From Acidobacteriota bacterium (GTDB lineage: Bacteria > Acidobacteriota > Terriglobia > Terriglobales > Acidobacteriaceae), in assembly GCA_019241535.1 (NCBI GenBank), contig JAFAWX010000050.1:1-36891 (forward strand): a stretch of DNA of 36,891 bases, in the 5' to 3' direction. Positions 5,580 through 27,534 of this stretch are shown piece after piece (positions within the stretch are counted from its first letter, which is position 1; each line of letters begins with the position of its first letter). The translations under genes were made by a program, and so were the position numbers. A model generated the notes under the pieces. The model was not told the origin of the DNA and ran no database searches. It saw only the letters and a list, made by a program, of their open reading frames with translations.

Positions 5580-5882
5580 GTGGTTCCGCTGTCCTATTAC
5601 CTGATTCTCAGTGCCATTCTGTTCGCCTGCGGAGTCACCGGCTTCCTCATTAAGCGCAATATCATCACGATATTCATGTCCATAGAACTGATGCTCAACG
5701 GTGTGAACCTTTCCTTTGTGGCCTTTGCCGTTCGCTGGCACAACCTTAGCGGCCAGGTATTTGTCTTTTTCGTCATGGTGGTGGCAGCGGCCGAAGCCGC
5801 CGTCGGCCTGGCCATCATCATTGCGGTGTTCCGTACGCGTGAGACCTTGAACATTGATCAGGTTAACCTGCTGAAGTTATGA
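5580..5882 (+). CDS. nuoK: NADH-quinone oxidoreductase subunit K
   Basis: 100 aa, GTG start, with [24 protein letters not shown] and [19 protein letters not shown]. Confidence 0.96.
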
Positions 5883-7999
5883 CGCCCAATCTCCATCTCT
5901 GGCTGCTTCCCGTTCTGCCTCTGGTGGGTGCGGCGATCAACGGCCTTTTCGGCAAACGGTTCAACCGGCGCGCGGTCGCTGCCGTCGCCCTCATCTTCAG
6001 CGGGTCGGCATTTTTGATCGCGCTTTGGGTTGCGTCCCAGTTGCCCAAGATGTCCTCCCTGCCCCACGTGGAAACGGTGGCGGGCTGGCTGCGCGCGGGC
6101 ACTTTCCGCGCCGACTTTTCTTTTTATCTCGACCAGCTTTCCGTGGTGATGCTTCTCGTCGTCACCGGTGTCGGATTCCTGATCCATGTCTATTCTGTCG
6201 GGTACATGTGGGAAGAGGGCGGCTATTATCGCTTTTTTTCCTATTTGAACCTTTTCATGTTCTTCATGCTGGTGCTGGTTCTTGCCGGCAATTATCTCCT
6301 CCTGTTTGTCGGCTGGGAAGGCGTTGGTCTGGCTTCGTACCTGCTGATTGGATTTTTCTTTCTGCGTGATTCGGCGGCGGCCGCGGGCAAGAAGGCGTTC
6401 ATTGTGAACCGCGTGGGCGATTTTGGCTTCTTGCTGGCGCTGTTTTTGATCATCCAACACTTCGGAACGCTTGATTTTGACAAAGTCTTTGCCGCCGTCG
6501 AGCCCTACCAGGGTGAGACCGCAGGCTTCGGCTTTCTCACTGCTATTGCACTTCTGCTGACCATGGGCGCCTGCGGCAAATCGGCGCAGATCCCTTTGTA
6601 CGTGTGGCTGCCCGATGCCATGGAAGGACCAACACCGGTCTCGGCGCTGATTCATGCCGCCACCATGGTAACCGCCGGCGTGTACATGGTGGCGCGCTCA
6701 CACGTGATTTTTGAGCGCGCACCCAGCGCCCTGATGGTGGTCGCCATCATCGGAGCGCTGACGGCCTTCTTTGCCGCAACTATCGGCATTGCCCAGACCG
6801 ATATAAAAAAAGTCCTTGCCTATTCCACGATTTCGCAGCTGGGATACATGTTTCTGGCCTGCGGAGTGGCGGCGTTTTCTGCAGGGATTTTTCATTTGAT
6901 GACTCACGCCTTCTTCAAAGGCCTGCTGTTTCTGGCGGCAGGTTCCGTTATTCATTCGATCGGCGGCGAGCAGGACATGCGCAAAATGGGCGGCTTGCGA
7001 ACTCGTATTCCGGGGACATTCTGGACGATGACGGTTGCGACCTTTGCCATCGCCGGCATTCCCCCGTTCGCCGGATTCTTCAGCAAAGACGAAATTCTGT
7101 GGCGCGCCTACCAGGCGAGCTGGGCATACTGGCTGGTCGGTTTGTTGACCGCTTTCATCACCTCCTTCTACATGTTTCGGCTTTGGTTCCTGACATTTTT
7201 TGGCCAGTATCGCGGTTCGGCCGTTGCTTCGCATAGTCATGTCCAGCCTGCCCCAGGGGTAATCGAAGTTGCCAATCAGCGCCCCAGGGTCGGGGAAGCG
7301 GAGAATGCCCAGGCTCGAGGGCTCTCCGGAACGCCTGTGCAAGAGAGCCGAGGTCACGAGCACGGCGGCATTCACGAGAGCCCCACAGTGATGCTGGTTC
7401 CTCTTGCCATCCTGGCGGTGCTTTCGCTCGTAGGCGGCTGGATTGGCGTTCCCGGCTCGCTCGGGGGCAGCAACCGTTTCGATAAGTTTCTCGGGCCCGT
7501 ATTCCGCTCGACGACCCCCGCGTTGACCCAGGAACACGAGCGTCCGGCGGAATCCGTTCCCCCGGAGCGAGAAACCGAGGGCGCGGAGCCCCAGACCGGG
7601 CATGGCACAGAATTAGTCTTTACGGCGATCTCCGTCATCACCGCCTTCGCGGGATTCGGTCTGGCCTTCCTGCTTTACTGGAAGCGCCCCGAACTGCCGG
7701 ATCAGATCGCCGCTTCCTTCCACGGTATCTATCAAGCCGTGGCCAACAAGTACTGGATCGACGAGGTCTATGCCGTCATCTTCGTTAAACCTCTAATTTC
7801 CGTTTCCGCACTTGTCTTCTGGCGGGGAATCGATCAGGGCGTTATTGACGCCACCATTGACGGCAGCGCCGAAGGCGCGCGCGAGCTCTCGGATAATTTG
7901 CGGCACATGCAGTCGGGCAACCTGCGTTCCTACGCCGGATGGGTGGCGATCGGGGCCACGGGCGTGATTGCATACATGCTTTGGGTGGGAATGAGATGA
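5879..7999 (+). CDS. nuoL: NADH-quinone oxidoreductase subunit L
   Basis: 706 aa with [47 protein letters not shown] and a C-terminal lateral-helix region. Overlaps the nuoK stop. Confidence 0.97.
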
Positions 8000-14449: not shown

Positions 14450-14625
14450 CACCGGAAGAGTTGCCAGCCGCAGAAACCGGGGTCTAAAGCGGTATCGAGG
14501 CGAACGATTCTTCTATTTTTTGCATTATTAACAGAATTAAGGTTAGCTTGAAAGTTACCGGAGGACTTCCCGGCCGGGACGGCGCGTGCCCCGGCCTTTG
14601 GCTCAGTGCTCGTCGGCAGGTTTGG

Positions 14626-15345
14626 ATGACGAATAATAGCTTCAGCGAGAGCGACTCACTCGTGGTGCTGACCAGGCGCGCCTACGGGGTGGCCAGCGCC
14701 GCCGCCCAGACCGCCGCTGATCTTATTTTGGGTGCAAATTCGGGCCTCGAGCAGATTGCAGCGTACGAGCGCCAGCTGGACGAACTGGACCGGGAAATCG
14801 ACGAGCGCCTGGCGACCGAGATTGCCGACGCGCCGCTCCCGCAGGTTCGGGAGAAACTTGCCTGCCTCAAGTGCATGATCGATCTTGAGCGGGTTGGGGA
14901 TCTGCTTCTGTCATTTTCAACCCGCGCCGACACCGTGCGCTCCCGCCTCGACATGCAGGACCTGCGAGACCTCGGCGACATGCTTGCCATTCTTTCCCGC
15001 ATGCTGAGTGACACCGATGCAGCGTTTTCATCACGCGACCATGCCCGCGCACTCGAAGTGCTGCGCGCAGACTGGGAGGTCGATCGCCTGCACAACTTGA
15101 TCGTGATGCGCCACCTGGAGCCGCAATCAGCCTTCGGGGGACCGCACAGCGTGCATGTGATCGGCATGGCCCAGGCGGTCGAACGGGCTGCCGACCACGT
15201 CAAGAACACGGCGGAAGAGGTCTGTCACTTGGTCAGCGGCCATACCGTCCGACACCTGCTGCGATTAAAGGAAAAATCCGCCGAGCAGCTCTATCTGGAG
15301 CACCTTCACCAGCAACATCTCGGGGGCGGAACCCGCGCGGAATGA
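14626..15345 (+). CDS. PhoU-like protein (divergent paralogue of the downstream phoU)
   Basis: From ATG 14626: MTNNSFSESDSLVVLTRRAYGVASAAAQTAADLILG, helical with CMIDLERVGDLLLSFSTRADT and QAVERAADHVKNTAEEVCHLVSG, matching PhoU E/DxxxD-type helices. Located upstream of pstS. Confidence 0.75.
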   Translation: MTNNSFSESDSLVVLTRRAYGVASAAAQTAADLILGANSGLEQIAAYERQLDELDREIDERLATEIADAPLPQVREKLACLKCMIDLERVGDLLLSFSTRADTVRSRLDMQDLRDLGDMLAILSRMLSDTDAAFSSRDHARALEVLRADWEVDRLHNLIVMRHLEPQSAFGGPHSVHVIGMAQAVERAADHVKNTAEEVCHLVSGHTVRHLLRLKEKSAEQLYLEHLHQQHLGGGTRAE

Positions 15346-18512: not shown

Positions 18513-19268
18513 ATGAGCACCGCCGTTGAGGTGCGCAATCTCAAAGCCTGGTTCGGCCCGACCGAGGCGCTGCACGGTATCGACATGTCCATTGCCTCGA
18601 CTCACGCTACGGCCGTGATCGGGCCCTCCGGATGTGGCAAGTCCACCTTTATTCGCTGCCTCAATCGTATGCACGAAACCAATCCGGAGGCTCGGGCCGA
18701 AGGCGAAGTCAAGATCGGGGGCATGGACATTTATGGTGTGCCGGCTGTTGACGTGCGGCGGCGGGTAGGGATGGTGTTTCAGAAAGCGAATCCATTTCCC
18801 ACCATGTCCATCTATGACAATGTAGCCGCCGGTCTGAAGCTGAACGGGATGCGCGATCGCCGGGTGCTCGATGAGGTTGTCGAGCACTCGCTGCAGCAGG
18901 CGGCGCTGTGGGAAGAAGTCAAGGATGTGCTCAAGAAGAAATCTGGAGCGAGCCTTTCCGGTGGTCAGCAGCAGCGCCTGTGCATTGCGCGCTCCCTGGC
19001 AGTAGATCCGGAGGTGCTGCTGATGGACGAACCGGCTTCGGCTCTCGATCCCATCTCCACCGCCAAAATCGAGGACCTGATCTTCGAGCTGAAACAGAAG
19101 CTCACCATCGTTATTGTGACTCATAATATGCAGCAGGCGTCTCGGGTGGCTGAATTCACGGGATTTTTCCTGATGGGCAGCCTGGTTGAGTTCGATCGCA
19201 CAGAAAAAATCTTCACTAATCCGTCGGACAAGCGAACAGAGGATTACATTACGGGCAGGTTTGGATGA
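18513..19268 (+). CDS. pstB: Phosphate ABC transporter ATP-binding protein
   Basis: Walker [10 protein letters not shown], signature [17 protein letters not shown], Walker [14 protein letters not shown]. Confidence 0.97.
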
Positions 19269-19942
19269 CACGCATTCGCTTCCATCAGGAACTGGAGGAA
19301 CTAAAGCACCGAATTCTGGCCATGGCGGGAATGGCGGAGCAAGCGGTGGACCTCGCGGTTGAAGCCTACACCGAGCGCGATTTAGGGCTTTGTCAGCGCG
19401 TGCTCACGAACGAAGCGGCCATTAACCGTGCCGAGCGCGAGGTGGACGAGTTTGCCATCGATCTGCTGGCCATGCAGCAGCCGATGGCCATCGACCTTCG
19501 CTTTATTCTCGCCGTCATCAAGATCAATGCCGATCTCGAGCGGGTAGGAGACCAGGCAGTCAACATCGTGCAACGCGTAATGAACATGATCGAACTGGCG
19601 CCGGCTGAGTTGCCGGTGGACATTCCCGCGATGGCGGCGCGGGCACGCGCCATGGTCAGGGACGCGCTGCGGGCCTTCATTGAAGGCGACCCGGAGCTCG
19701 CCCGGCACGTTCTGGTGGCCGACGACGAGATCGACCGCATGAACAAAGAAGCCTTTGCCGCCCTGTCCGCCTGCATGCAGTCTAAGCCCGATTGGGCCGC
19801 GCAGGCTCTCGACGCCCTGTCGATTGCGCGCAACCTGGAACGGGTCGCGGACCATGCTACCAACATTGCCGAGGACGTCATTTTCTGGATCCGCGGGGCT
19901 GACGTTCGCCACGGCGCAGGGCAGAGCCTGGCGGGGAGCTGA
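19265..19942 (+). CDS. phoU: Phosphate signalling regulator PhoU
   Basis: 225 aa overlapping the pstB stop by [63 protein letters not shown]. Confidence 0.96.
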
Positions 19943-24401: not shown

Positions 24402-24865
24402 CTATGTAAGCGTCTTTAATTGTTGTTAACGCTTCGCTCTAGTACGGGCGGAGACTCGAGGTGGTGAGAGTCTGCGTGTTGCTCATGGCCTAGGAACTAC
24501 TTTATGGAAATCAGCAACTGCCGAGCCGCCCGGTGTGGCAACGCAGGGTTCTGATTGCTGCAGCTCGGAGATGGCCTTGCCATCATCTCGCCCGTCCGGC
24601 GAGCATTAGTAGGCTTACCCCTGTCCGCCGCGTGTTGGGGGCCAGCCGCTTGATGGCCGAGGGGGGACCACAGCACTGAAATCCGGATCCTTCCGCTGAG
24701 CTTGGATAGAGGCCTGCCGAAGGCCACCCCAGAGCGCGCGAGGCCTGCTGCATAACAAATCTCGGGCTCTTGTAACCTTTGTCGGGTTTTCGAATCACAC
24801 TCTGGTTAGCCTTTCTTCGGAAACAGTGTATGGAACGCCGCATCGACAGCCGGGGATTCAGACTT

Positions 24866-25549
24866 ATGAATCGGCGTGAACTGCTGAAATTCACGCCGCT
24901 CCTCGCATTTGGGGCATTGGCTGTTCCGAAACTCCAGAAGCCGTTCTTGAAAGCAGGTCTGGGATTGAGCGACTGGGTTTCAGCCAAGCTTTACCGCTCC
25001 CATCATCTTGCGACCACGTTTTCGGACTCTGAACTAACTCCGCTCGATAAGTTCCCGGTCAACGACTACGACGTTGACGATCCGGATCTCGATCTCGATA
25101 GTTGGACGCTTGCCGTCGGAGGTGCAGTCGAGAGGCCCGGAGAGTACAGGCTGGGCGACATTCAAGCCCTTCCGCTGTACCGGCAGAACACGCGCCACGT
25201 TTGTGTGGAGGGTTGGGACGTGATCGGGCGCTTTGGCGGGGCGCGCCTCTCTGACTTCCTGAAAACTGTCGGTGCGCAGCCGGGGGCACGTTTTGTCACG
25301 GTCGAATGTGCTGATGACTATTACGAGTCCCTTGACATGGCCACAGCACTACATCCCCAGACTCTGCTTTGCTACGAAATGTACGATCGGCCGCTGACGC
25401 GCGAACACGGGGCGCCTTTGCGTCTACAAATTCCCACCAAAATTGGATACAAGCAGGCCAAATACCTGACCAAGTTGAAACTCACACATGTGCTCGAGCG
25501 GGTTGGTTACTGGGAAGATCAGGGTTACTCGAAGTTTTACGGGCTCTAG
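24866..25549 (+). CDS. Sulfite-oxidase-fold molybdopterin-dependent oxidoreductase (MsrP/YedY-like), TAT-type N-terminus
   Basis: MNRRELLKFTPLLAFGALAVP twin-arginine-like start; RHVCVEGWDVIGRFGGARLSDFL (Mo-ligand Cys region); DYYESLDMATALHPQTLLCYEMYDRPLTREHGAPLRLQIPTKIGYKQAKYLTKL. Confidence 0.9.
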   Translation: MNRRELLKFTPLLAFGALAVPKLQKPFLKAGLGLSDWVSAKLYRSHHLATTFSDSELTPLDKFPVNDYDVDDPDLDLDSWTLAVGGAVERPGEYRLGDIQALPLYRQNTRHVCVEGWDVIGRFGGARLSDFLKTVGAQPGARFVTVECADDYYESLDMATALHPQTLLCYEMYDRPLTREHGAPLRLQIPTKIGYKQAKYLTKLKLTHVLERVGYWEDQGYSKFYGL

Positions 25550-25564
25550 GAGGGCGGTGTCGGC

Positions 25565-26260
25565 ATGTCGGCGAAGGAAGTCACGATCGAGAACAGAAAA
25601 ACCGGCGAGATTACCGACGCTGTCTATGAGCACCCTCTGATCATTCGCTACTGCCACTGGCTCAATGCGGTGGCATTGTTCGTTCTCGCCGGAAGCGGCC
25701 TCCAAATCTTTCGCGCCTTTCCGAGCTTCGGAGCGAAAATCCCGCAGAAGGTGCTCATCAATTGGCCGCCCTCGCTTGCAATCGGGGGCTGGCTCGGAGG
25801 CGCTCTCCAGTGGCATCTCACCTTTGCCTGGATCTACATCGGCACGGGCCTTCTCTACCTTGCCTACCAGGTTTTAAGCGGAAACTATAAACAGGTGCTG
25901 TTTGTGAGCCGCGATCTCCCGGGAGTTTGGCCCATGGTGCGCCACTACTTCCTCTTCGGTCCTAGGCCAGCGCCCCGGGAAGCCTATAACGCCTTGCAGA
26001 AGCATGCCTATACGTCGGTCTTCGTCTTAGGCGTACTATCGGTCGGGACGGGTTTTGTCTTGTGGAAGCCGGTTCAGTTTTCCTGGCTGGCGTGGATGAT
26101 GGGCGGTTTTCACTGGGCGCGGCTCTGGCATTTCCTTATCTTGTGGGCGATGGTGGCTTTCGTGTTCGGCCATCTGGTGATGGTGGTTGTGCACGGGTGG
26201 AATAACTTTGTCTCAATGTTGACGGGATGGAAGAAGGATCCGGAATACATTCGGAGGTAG
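25565..26260 (+). CDS. Cytochrome b561-type membrane diheme protein
   Basis: YEHPLIIRYCHWLNAVALFVLAGSGLQIF, QKHAYTSVFVLGVLSVGTGF and HFLILWAMVAFVFGHLVMVVVHGW, consistent with the Ni-hydrogenase/thiosulfate-reductase cytochrome b fold. Starts 16 bp after the molybdoprotein. Confidence 0.87.
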   Translation: MSAKEVTIENRKTGEITDAVYEHPLIIRYCHWLNAVALFVLAGSGLQIFRAFPSFGAKIPQKVLINWPPSLAIGGWLGGALQWHLTFAWIYIGTGLLYLAYQVLSGNYKQVLFVSRDLPGVWPMVRHYFLFGPRPAPREAYNALQKHAYTSVFVLGVLSVGTGFVLWKPVQFSWLAWMMGGFHWARLWHFLILWAMVAFVFGHLVMVVVHGWNNFVSMLTGWKKDPEYIRR

Positions 26261-26308
26261 CAGGCCTTCCCGAGAGTAGTGGTCCTGCCGTTTACGGTGA
26301 GGAGGTAG

Positions 26309-26950
26309 GTGGTGACCCGGCTGGAGGAGGCGCATCAAATCGAGGAGGAACGCCTCATCCAGCGCGTGAGGGACGGCGAGAGTGAGATTTTTTATGAGCT
26401 GGTCCGTCCTCACGAACGCCGTATCTATGCCGCGGCTTTTGCCATCCTCCGCAACCAGGCCGATGCCGAGGATGCGGCTCAGGAAGCCGTATTCAAGGCC
26501 TTCAAACACATCCGCCAGTTCCGCCGTGAAGCGAAGTTCAGTACCTGGCTTATTCAAATCGTGGTGAATGAGGCACGCATGCGGAGAAGAAAAGACCGCG
26601 CCGAGCTTATGGAGGCGATCGACAAGCATGGAGAAGACGACCGTTACACGCCTCGCGATTTTGCCGACTGGCGCGAAATTCCTTCGGACGTTCTCGAACG
26701 GCGGGAAGTACGGGAGAAGCTGGCGCAAGCACTGGCTTCGCTCGGGCCGATCTACCGGGAAGTCTTCGTGTTGCGCGACATGGAACAATTGAGTATCGAG
26801 GAGACGGCGAAGGCGCTGGAAATTTCTTCGTCTGCGGTGAAGACGCGGCTGCTTCGGGCGCGGCTAATGCTGCGCGACCTGCTCGCGCCCGGACTGGGGG
26901 CACCGTGGAGCAGCCGGTTGTCTTTTTCACAGGGGACAAAGCCATGGTAG
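26309..26950 (+). CDS. RNA polymerase ECF sigma factor (sigma-E/W like)
   Basis: Region 2 (IYAAAFAILRNQADAEDAAQEAVFKAFKHIRQFRREAKFSTWLIQIVVNEARMRRRKDR) and region 4 (YREVFVLRDMEQLSIEETAKALEISSSAVKTRLLRAR). GTG start after GGAGG. Confidence 0.93.
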   Translation: MVTRLEEAHQIEEERLIQRVRDGESEIFYELVRPHERRIYAAAFAILRNQADAEDAAQEAVFKAFKHIRQFRREAKFSTWLIQIVVNEARMRRRKDRAELMEAIDKHGEDDRYTPRDFADWREIPSDVLERREVREKLAQALASLGPIYREVFVLRDMEQLSIEETAKALEISSSAVKTRLLRARLMLRDLLAPGLGAPWSSRLSFSQGTKPW

Positions 26951-27534
26951 TCAGCTGCGAGCAGGTATGGCAGGAAGTGTCAAATTATCTCGATGCCGAG
27001 GTCGAGCCGGAGCTGCGCGCCGCCATCGATCAGCATGTGCGCGGCTGCAGGTGCTGCGCTGCGGTGATGGACGGCGTCCGTAACGTTATGCAACTCTACG
27101 CTGACGAACGCATGCTCGAGCTGCCGCTCGGATTCAGCCGCCGTCTGCACCGCCGATTGGAAGGCGAGTTGGGGGGTACGAGAAGAAGCTTTTTCGGCTG
27201 GATGGCTGCCGCTGCCGTCTCCGTCCTGGCCGCAGGGGCCTTCGAAGCGGCGCGCTCGTCCGTCTTTAGCCGCCCTGGTCTGCGTTCACAACACGCTCGA
27301 GCTTCGGGCCACGTGCCTCCTGACATGCTGGTCGTAGTAGCCGAGAATGGAAAGACCTTTCATGTCAGTGGCTGCCGGTTCATTCACGACCAAAGGAGCT
27401 TGCGCACGATTCCCGCCCGCGAGGCAATCGAGGAAGGATACGTTCCCTGCGTGCGTTGCATGAAGAAATATCTTGAATCTGGCGCACGCCTGGGCGCCGT
27501 CGATCCCGCTCCGCCCGACCTCGCCCGCTCCTGA
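26944..27534 (+). CDS. Putative membrane-anchored anti-sigma factor with zinc-finger N-terminus and Ada-like Cys/His C-terminal tail
   Basis: ATG 26944 overlaps the sigma stop. HVRGCRCC (H-x3-C-x2-C) ZAS-like motif, TM-like FFGWMAAAAVSVLAAGAF, then FHVSGCRFIHDQRSLRTIPAREAIEEGYVPCVRCMKKY. Confidence 0.82.
   Translation: MVVSCEQVWQEVSNYLDAEVEPELRAAIDQHVRGCRCCAAVMDGVRNVMQLYADERMLELPLGFSRRLHRRLEGELGGTRRSFFGWMAAAAVSVLAAGAFEAARSSVFSRPGLRSQHARASGHVPPDMLVVVAENGKTFHVSGCRFIHDQRSLRTIPAREAIEEGYVPCVRCMKKYLESGARLGAVDPAPPDLARS

Follow-up and report, generated by a model that had tools for sequence, protein, structure and literature searches.

The window, a stretch of 36,891 nucleotides from a soil Acidobacteriota bacterium (assembly GCA_019241535.1, contig JAFAWX010000050.1, positions 1-36,891), carries four adjacent genes on the plus strand. 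The first (24866-25549) encodes a 227-aa molybdoprotein with a sulfite-oxidase fold (PF00174, E=2.3e-32). It is followed by the gene for a 231-aa b561-type cytochrome b (Ni_hydr_CYTB; 25565-26260; PF01292, E=4.2e-25), an ECF sigma factor gene with a GTG start (26309-26950; 213 aa; Sigma70_r2, PF04542, and Sigma70_r4, PF08281), and an anti-sigma factor gene (26944-27534), the 196-aa product of which contains a zf-HC2 zinc finger, one TM helix and an Ada-like domain. The intergenic distances are 15 nt and 48 nt, and the sigma and anti-sigma genes overlap by 7 nt; the compact same-strand arrangement described in the first-pass annotation is thus real, with spacing essentially as claimed. A longer GTG reading frame beginning at 26905 was considered as the start of the anti-sigma gene and rejected, the conserved start being the ATG at 26944. 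In keeping with the single unit proposed in that annotation, no terminator-like site was found in the gap between the cytochrome and sigma genes. Terminator-like sites across the region did not rise above the shuffle level, and an explanation by sigma-70 promoters and terminators was set aside, as the matches stood at that same level. The comparison of the region with Rfam yielded no matching RNA element. Elsewhere in the window, an apparent pst operon for phosphate uptake lies between two PhoU-like genes (14548-15345 and 19265-19942), of which one precedes pstS and the other comes after pstB.

The molybdoprotein begins with MNRRELLK, a Tat-like signal (NRRELLK), and its Cys113 (25202-25204) aligns with Cys102 of E. 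coli MsrP, the molybdenum ligand, as does Glu115 with Glu104; C113 and E115 are invariant in 34 sequences. Against the MsrP equivalog model NF003767, the protein scored 84.5 bits, below the cut-off of 207, and the canonical MsrP of the same genome scored 458.5 bits. In a maximum-likelihood tree, all MsrP sequences formed one 100/100 clade on a branch of length 2.4, with the window molybdoprotein outside it. An assignment as MsrP was rejected by both score and tree, and the sequences place the molybdoprotein in a separate, b561-linked family. The genome also carries a separate canonical msrP, followed by an MsrQ-like gene truncated by the contig end, and the operon cytochrome matches PF01292 and not the MsrQ family. 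The suggestion of the first-pass annotation that a b561 cytochrome replaces MsrQ was not borne out, since the molybdoprotein belongs to a different family and the canonical MsrPQ is present; what we see is better described as a distinct family of molybdoproteins that is paired with a b561 cytochrome of its own. In the open-licence literature searched we found no demonstrated substrate or described function for this family, nor any b561-partnered methionine-sulfoxide reductase or acidobacterial system, which is a weak absence. The same genome encodes a 559-aa cytochrome-molybdoprotein fusion (L233, 5036-6715, on contig C238).

The cytochrome scored 89 bits against PF01292, above the Pfam gathering score of 30.1, and a PDB sequence search returned hydrogenase-1 cytochrome b alone (E=9e-4). 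In named genomes we scanned 80 loci, which were selected by two peptide patterns and therefore sample this b561-linked family only; the family is spread over Acidobacteriota, Ignavibacteriota, Pseudomonadota and Cyanobacteriota. The cytochrome gene adjoins the molybdoprotein gene in 79 of these 80 loci, across the four phyla, and the b561-type cytochrome is the predicted electron donor passing electrons from quinol to the molybdoprotein. The sole locus with a molybdoprotein gene lacking an adjoining cytochrome gene (L156, 6001-10336) has apparent electron-transfer flavoprotein genes downstream of the molybdoprotein gene.

Close orthologues of the molybdoprotein (61-91% identity) were found in nine genomes, including its own, among the 41 genomes of the relatives set. 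All four genes occur in order in five of the relatives (G021, G013, G005, G004 and G006), with differing flanking genes; in G002 the module is split over two contigs, and in G001 it is present as far as the contig reaches. In the named-genome scan, the sigma and anti-sigma genes follow the enzyme pair in 16 of the 34 acidobacterial loci and in none of the loci from other phyla. The distance between the cytochrome and sigma genes was 3-143 nt in 11 of the 12 loci measured. Because the gene order recurs in relatives with different flanks, the four genes form a module beyond chance, and the co-occurrence of the sigma pair with the oxidoreductase pair, on which the first-pass annotation had staked its proposal, holds in seven relatives as well as in those acidobacterial loci. 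In one locus (L145, 4157-4651), an SRPBCC/AHSA1-like gene is inserted between the cytochrome and sigma genes. The window's own genome contains a second, decaying copy of the module on the minus strand (L055, G000:C185:5000-20000, at 5794-7693), in which the sigma gene is intact, the cytochrome and anti-sigma genes are broken by frameshifts and stops, and no molybdoprotein gene was found beside them. Relatives of the sigma/zinc-finger pair, mostly without a periplasmic domain, were found in about 30 genomes, nearly all lacking the enzyme pair.

The ECF sigma factor shows 63-75% identity among module relatives. Its partner had been called a cysteine-rich anti-sigma factor, and C5, C35, C38, C144, C169 and C172 are indeed invariant among the module anti-sigmas. 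The ZAS motif H31-x3-C35-x2-C38 (27034-27057, plus strand) is unchanged in eight module anti-sigmas. A TM helix predicted at residues 83-106 (27190-27261, plus strand) appears as a long hydrophobic helix in the AlphaFold model (pLDDT 81.5), and beyond it lies an Ada-like domain, predicted to be periplasmic, with the invariant residues H140-x3-C144...C169-x2-C172 (27316-27474, plus strand) and a His at the position of Ada's first zinc Cys. In a Foldseek search with the model, the three best matches were Ada N-domains (for 1u8b, probability 0.97, E 0.09); anti-sigma complexes (RskA, RslA) ranked lower. The resemblance of this domain to the Ada metal-binding domain is only suggestive, because the best Foldseek E-values were 0.07-0.09; the Ada_Zn_binding profile (PF02805) stayed under its 23-bit cut-off in every member tested, with weak matches in several.

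A lone Ada-like domain behind a TM helix or a lipoprotein signal adjoins the enzyme pair, with no sigma factor or zinc finger, in L139, L168 (on the opposite strand), L170 (the same place as L053), L177 and L171. The last of these, from Ignavibacteriota, encodes a small Ada-like-domain lipoprotein (6802-7011) between the molybdoprotein and cytochrome genes. A parsimonious view is that fusion gave the anti-sigma factor an accessory domain from the enzyme side, which would tie the switch to the enzyme. We propose, tentatively and with rather more doubt than confidence, that the domain was captured from the Mo/b561 repair enzyme and that the anti-sigma factor directly senses oxidant damage or enzyme redox load through its His-Cys3 metal/thiol site.

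A putative ECF promoter, GTAACCT-N14-AATC, is located on the plus strand at 24772-24796, starting 94 nt before the ATG of the molybdoprotein gene. The consensus was GTAAC[C/T]T-N14-[A/C]NTC, with a nearly invariant spacing of 16 nt from GTAAC to NNTC; a tighter pattern ending in Y was discarded, as it missed the window site. A count over 536 kb of acidobacterial loci gave 39 sites, where shuffling predicts 2.95; the figure is slightly inflated because some contigs are represented twice. Loci from other phyla, 483 kb in total, had none. The element stands before molybdoprotein genes of relatives, before all 12 acidobacterial-type MXKDX genes tested, before msrA in L048, L160, L161 and L165, and before the detached sigma gene in L159. 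No such element precedes the sigma gene in the four-gene module, as it should be if transcription of sigma starts at the molybdoprotein promoter. Several module loci (e.g., L140, L143 and L144) lack it upstream of the molybdoprotein gene.

The motif was derived partly from sites later counted, and two tests were free of training sites, namely the window's own genome and the msrP genes of relatives. In the own 4.95-Mb genome, a relaxed form of the element gave six matches, with one for the reversed control; one match is the operon, and another lies 73 nt before the canonical msrP (contig C91). Matches at C370, C420, C425 and C159 were inside or far from genes and were therefore treated as chance, as was that on C238, which is some 500 nt away from the closest plausible start of a gene. 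Canonical msrP carried the element in 5 of 7 module genomes versus 1 of 13 others (Fisher p=0.007), the two module genomes without it being G006 and G002.

The neighbouring genes in relatives point to methionine repair. Secreted MsrA adjoins the anti-sigma gene, downstream, in L045 and L048, and secreted MsrA and MsrB adjoin the enzyme pair in L119, L160, L161, L165 and L169; family membership was confirmed for one MsrA and one MsrB. Small secreted Met-rich proteins, many of them MXKDX, are encoded beside the enzyme pair in 28 of the 80 loci under a strict scan and nowhere in 198 kb of control sequence, and the two MXKDX proteins tested were both above the TIGR02953 cut-off. Small Met-rich proteins of this kind act as hypochlorite scavengers, and the systems of Azospira and Brucella link them with YedYZ (PMC8315932, PMC4623255). 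In L058, a secreted protein with about 30% Met over 60 residues (7291-7788) is encoded directly after a distant cytochrome-molybdoprotein pair.

These MsrA/MsrB and MXKDX neighbours, and a promoter element shared with canonical msrP, point to periplasmic methionine-sulfoxide repair, and the precedent of SigF/NrsF and BcrS/AbcS over MrpX-YedYZ-type systems lends further weight (PMC4623255, PMC8315932). We therefore consider that the operon is probably an autoregulated periplasmic methionine-sulfoxide repair system, with the molybdoprotein as its predicted periplasmic methionine-sulfoxide reductase. Several observations count against this: the molybdoprotein shares only 30% identity with E. coli MsrP and lacks its C-terminal part, the own msrA does not carry the element, the window has no MXKDX or msrA neighbour, and the likeness to Ada consists of sub-threshold profile matches and the Foldseek E-values given above. 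A search of the own genome by pattern and by pieces gave no MXKDX protein matched by TIGR02953.

In such a system, the Tat-exported molybdoprotein would reduce protein methionine sulfoxide in the periplasm, with electrons presumably passing from the quinol pool through the b561-type cytochrome, as the protein families suggest. The one-TM anti-sigma factor would hold the ECF sigma factor at the membrane until reactive chlorine or related species, the probable oxidants, arrive at the periplasmic Ada-like H-C-C-C site; its cytoplasmic zinc finger may also be an oxidant target. The released sigma factor would then transcribe its own operon from GTAACYT-N14-MNTC and, in trans, the canonical msrPQ of the same genome; in relatives, it may also transcribe msrA(B) and the genes of methionine-rich scavengers (MXKDX).

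An alternative, which we regard as rather unlikely, is that metals (copper, chromate, cadmium) are the main signal for the sigma pair and that methionine repair is one branch of a regulon for metal stress, on the pattern of Caulobacter sigma-F. In Caulobacter crescentus, YedY and DUF692/DUF2063 operons are under the control of sigma-F, for which chromium and cadmium act as signals (PMC3511200). Homologues of the sigma factor with a short zinc-finger partner are encoded beside bufferin-type genes (DUF692, DUF2063) in L056 (1-3936) and L123 (2396-6147), and the promoter element precedes bufferin-like genes in L056 and L136 (about 7105). However, no bufferin genes were seen in the module loci, where the neighbours are MsrA/B and MXKDX, and the anti-sigma factor there has gained a different periplasmic domain.

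It is improbable, in our judgement, that the enzyme pair acts on another periplasmic substrate, as a sulfite dehydrogenase or an S-/N-oxide reductase, and that the Msr and MXKDX neighbours merely share an oxidative-stress regulon. The family is well separated from MsrP, the SorA, SoxC and SorT models also match the molybdoprotein, weakly, and no substrate has been demonstrated; yet each of the three b561-linked members scanned had MsrP as its best model, a gene for a cytochrome c partner is lacking, and the adjacency of MXKDX and MsrA/B, repeated in several phyla, fits methionine-sulfoxide repair best. That the four genes are adjacent by chance or general clustering and are separately controlled is hardly credible, despite the extra gene in L145 and the many sigma homologues without an enzyme pair, given a gene order that at least 16 named contigs share despite differing flanks, the short cytochrome-sigma gaps, a promoter element that precedes the first gene but not sigma, and a domain common to the anti-sigma factor and small enzyme-side proteins.

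ECF control of MsrP-type systems is already known (PMC8315932, PMC3511200, PMC4623255). The closest precedents for the repair system proposed here are SigF/NrsF-MrpX-YedY1-YedZ1 of Azospira suillum and BcrS/AbcS-BcrXQP of Brucella melitensis, which belong to ECF16 (PMC4623255, PMC8315932); the SigF/NrsF type is a reactive-chlorine system. As in the window, an ECF sigma factor and a membrane anti-sigma factor stand over a periplasmic Mo reductase, an activity that is predicted in our case. The regulon of those systems includes a Met-rich MXKDX peptide; here, MXKDX genes with the element occur in many module relatives and were not found in the own genome. Secreted MsrA/B have joined SigF-type systems in some perchlorate islands, just as MsrA/B neighbours occur in relatives here. 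The differences are that the reductase here falls outside MsrP and is paired with a b561-type cytochrome, not with MsrQ, and that the anti-sigma factor is a one-TM zinc-finger protein with an Ada-like domain, in contrast to the six-TM DUF1109 protein of the SigF/NrsF type. The putative promoter in the window can be written GTAACC-N13-CGAA as against GTAACC-N16-CGAA for the SigF type (PMC3511200), with the same -35 and a spacing 3 nt shorter. The proposed circuit logic is, on this sequence comparison, that of SigF/NrsF-MrpX-YedYZ, built from other parts: the reductase, the electron donor and the anti-sigma factor all differ.

Caulobacter sigma-F/NrsF likewise places YedY-type and bufferin operons under one ECF sigma factor, and homologues of the sigma factor described here adjoin such genes; it differs in its anti-sigma factor, its metal signal and the position of the reductase outside the sigma operon. 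E. coli MsrPQ shares a Tat-exported molybdoprotein, a membrane haem partner and the conserved Cys and Glu, and differs in its HprSR two-component control, its MsrQ partner and its distinct family, MsrPQ being present in the own genome as well. The anti-sigma factor shares H-x3-C-x2-C, an upstream Cys and the predicted anti-sigma fold with RsrA, RslA and ChrR-type ZAS proteins, to which it adds the TM helix and the periplasmic Ada-like domain. With the N-terminal metal-binding domain of Ada, that domain has in common the C...C-x2-C pattern, the best Foldseek match and a weak profile match, whereas Ada has a first zinc Cys in place of the His, and the domain here is predicted to be periplasmic and comes without a methyltransferase domain.

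Periplasmic methionine repair is known through MsrPQ. The present data point to a second, widespread Mo/b561 family that travels with methionine-rich peptides and MsrA/B. The acidobacterial form comes with a regulator of its own as well as a candidate promoter and regulon, which makes a joint test of enzyme, sensor and scavenger possible. It would also mean that different phyla have assembled a SigF-like circuit, combining an ECF sigma factor, methionine repair and bufferins, around unrelated anti-sigma factors. If the anti-sigma factor did capture the Ada-like domain from the enzyme side and does sense through it, it would be a novel kind of periplasmic redox sensor, coupled to a methionine-sulfoxide reductase of a new class that takes its electrons from a b561 donor.
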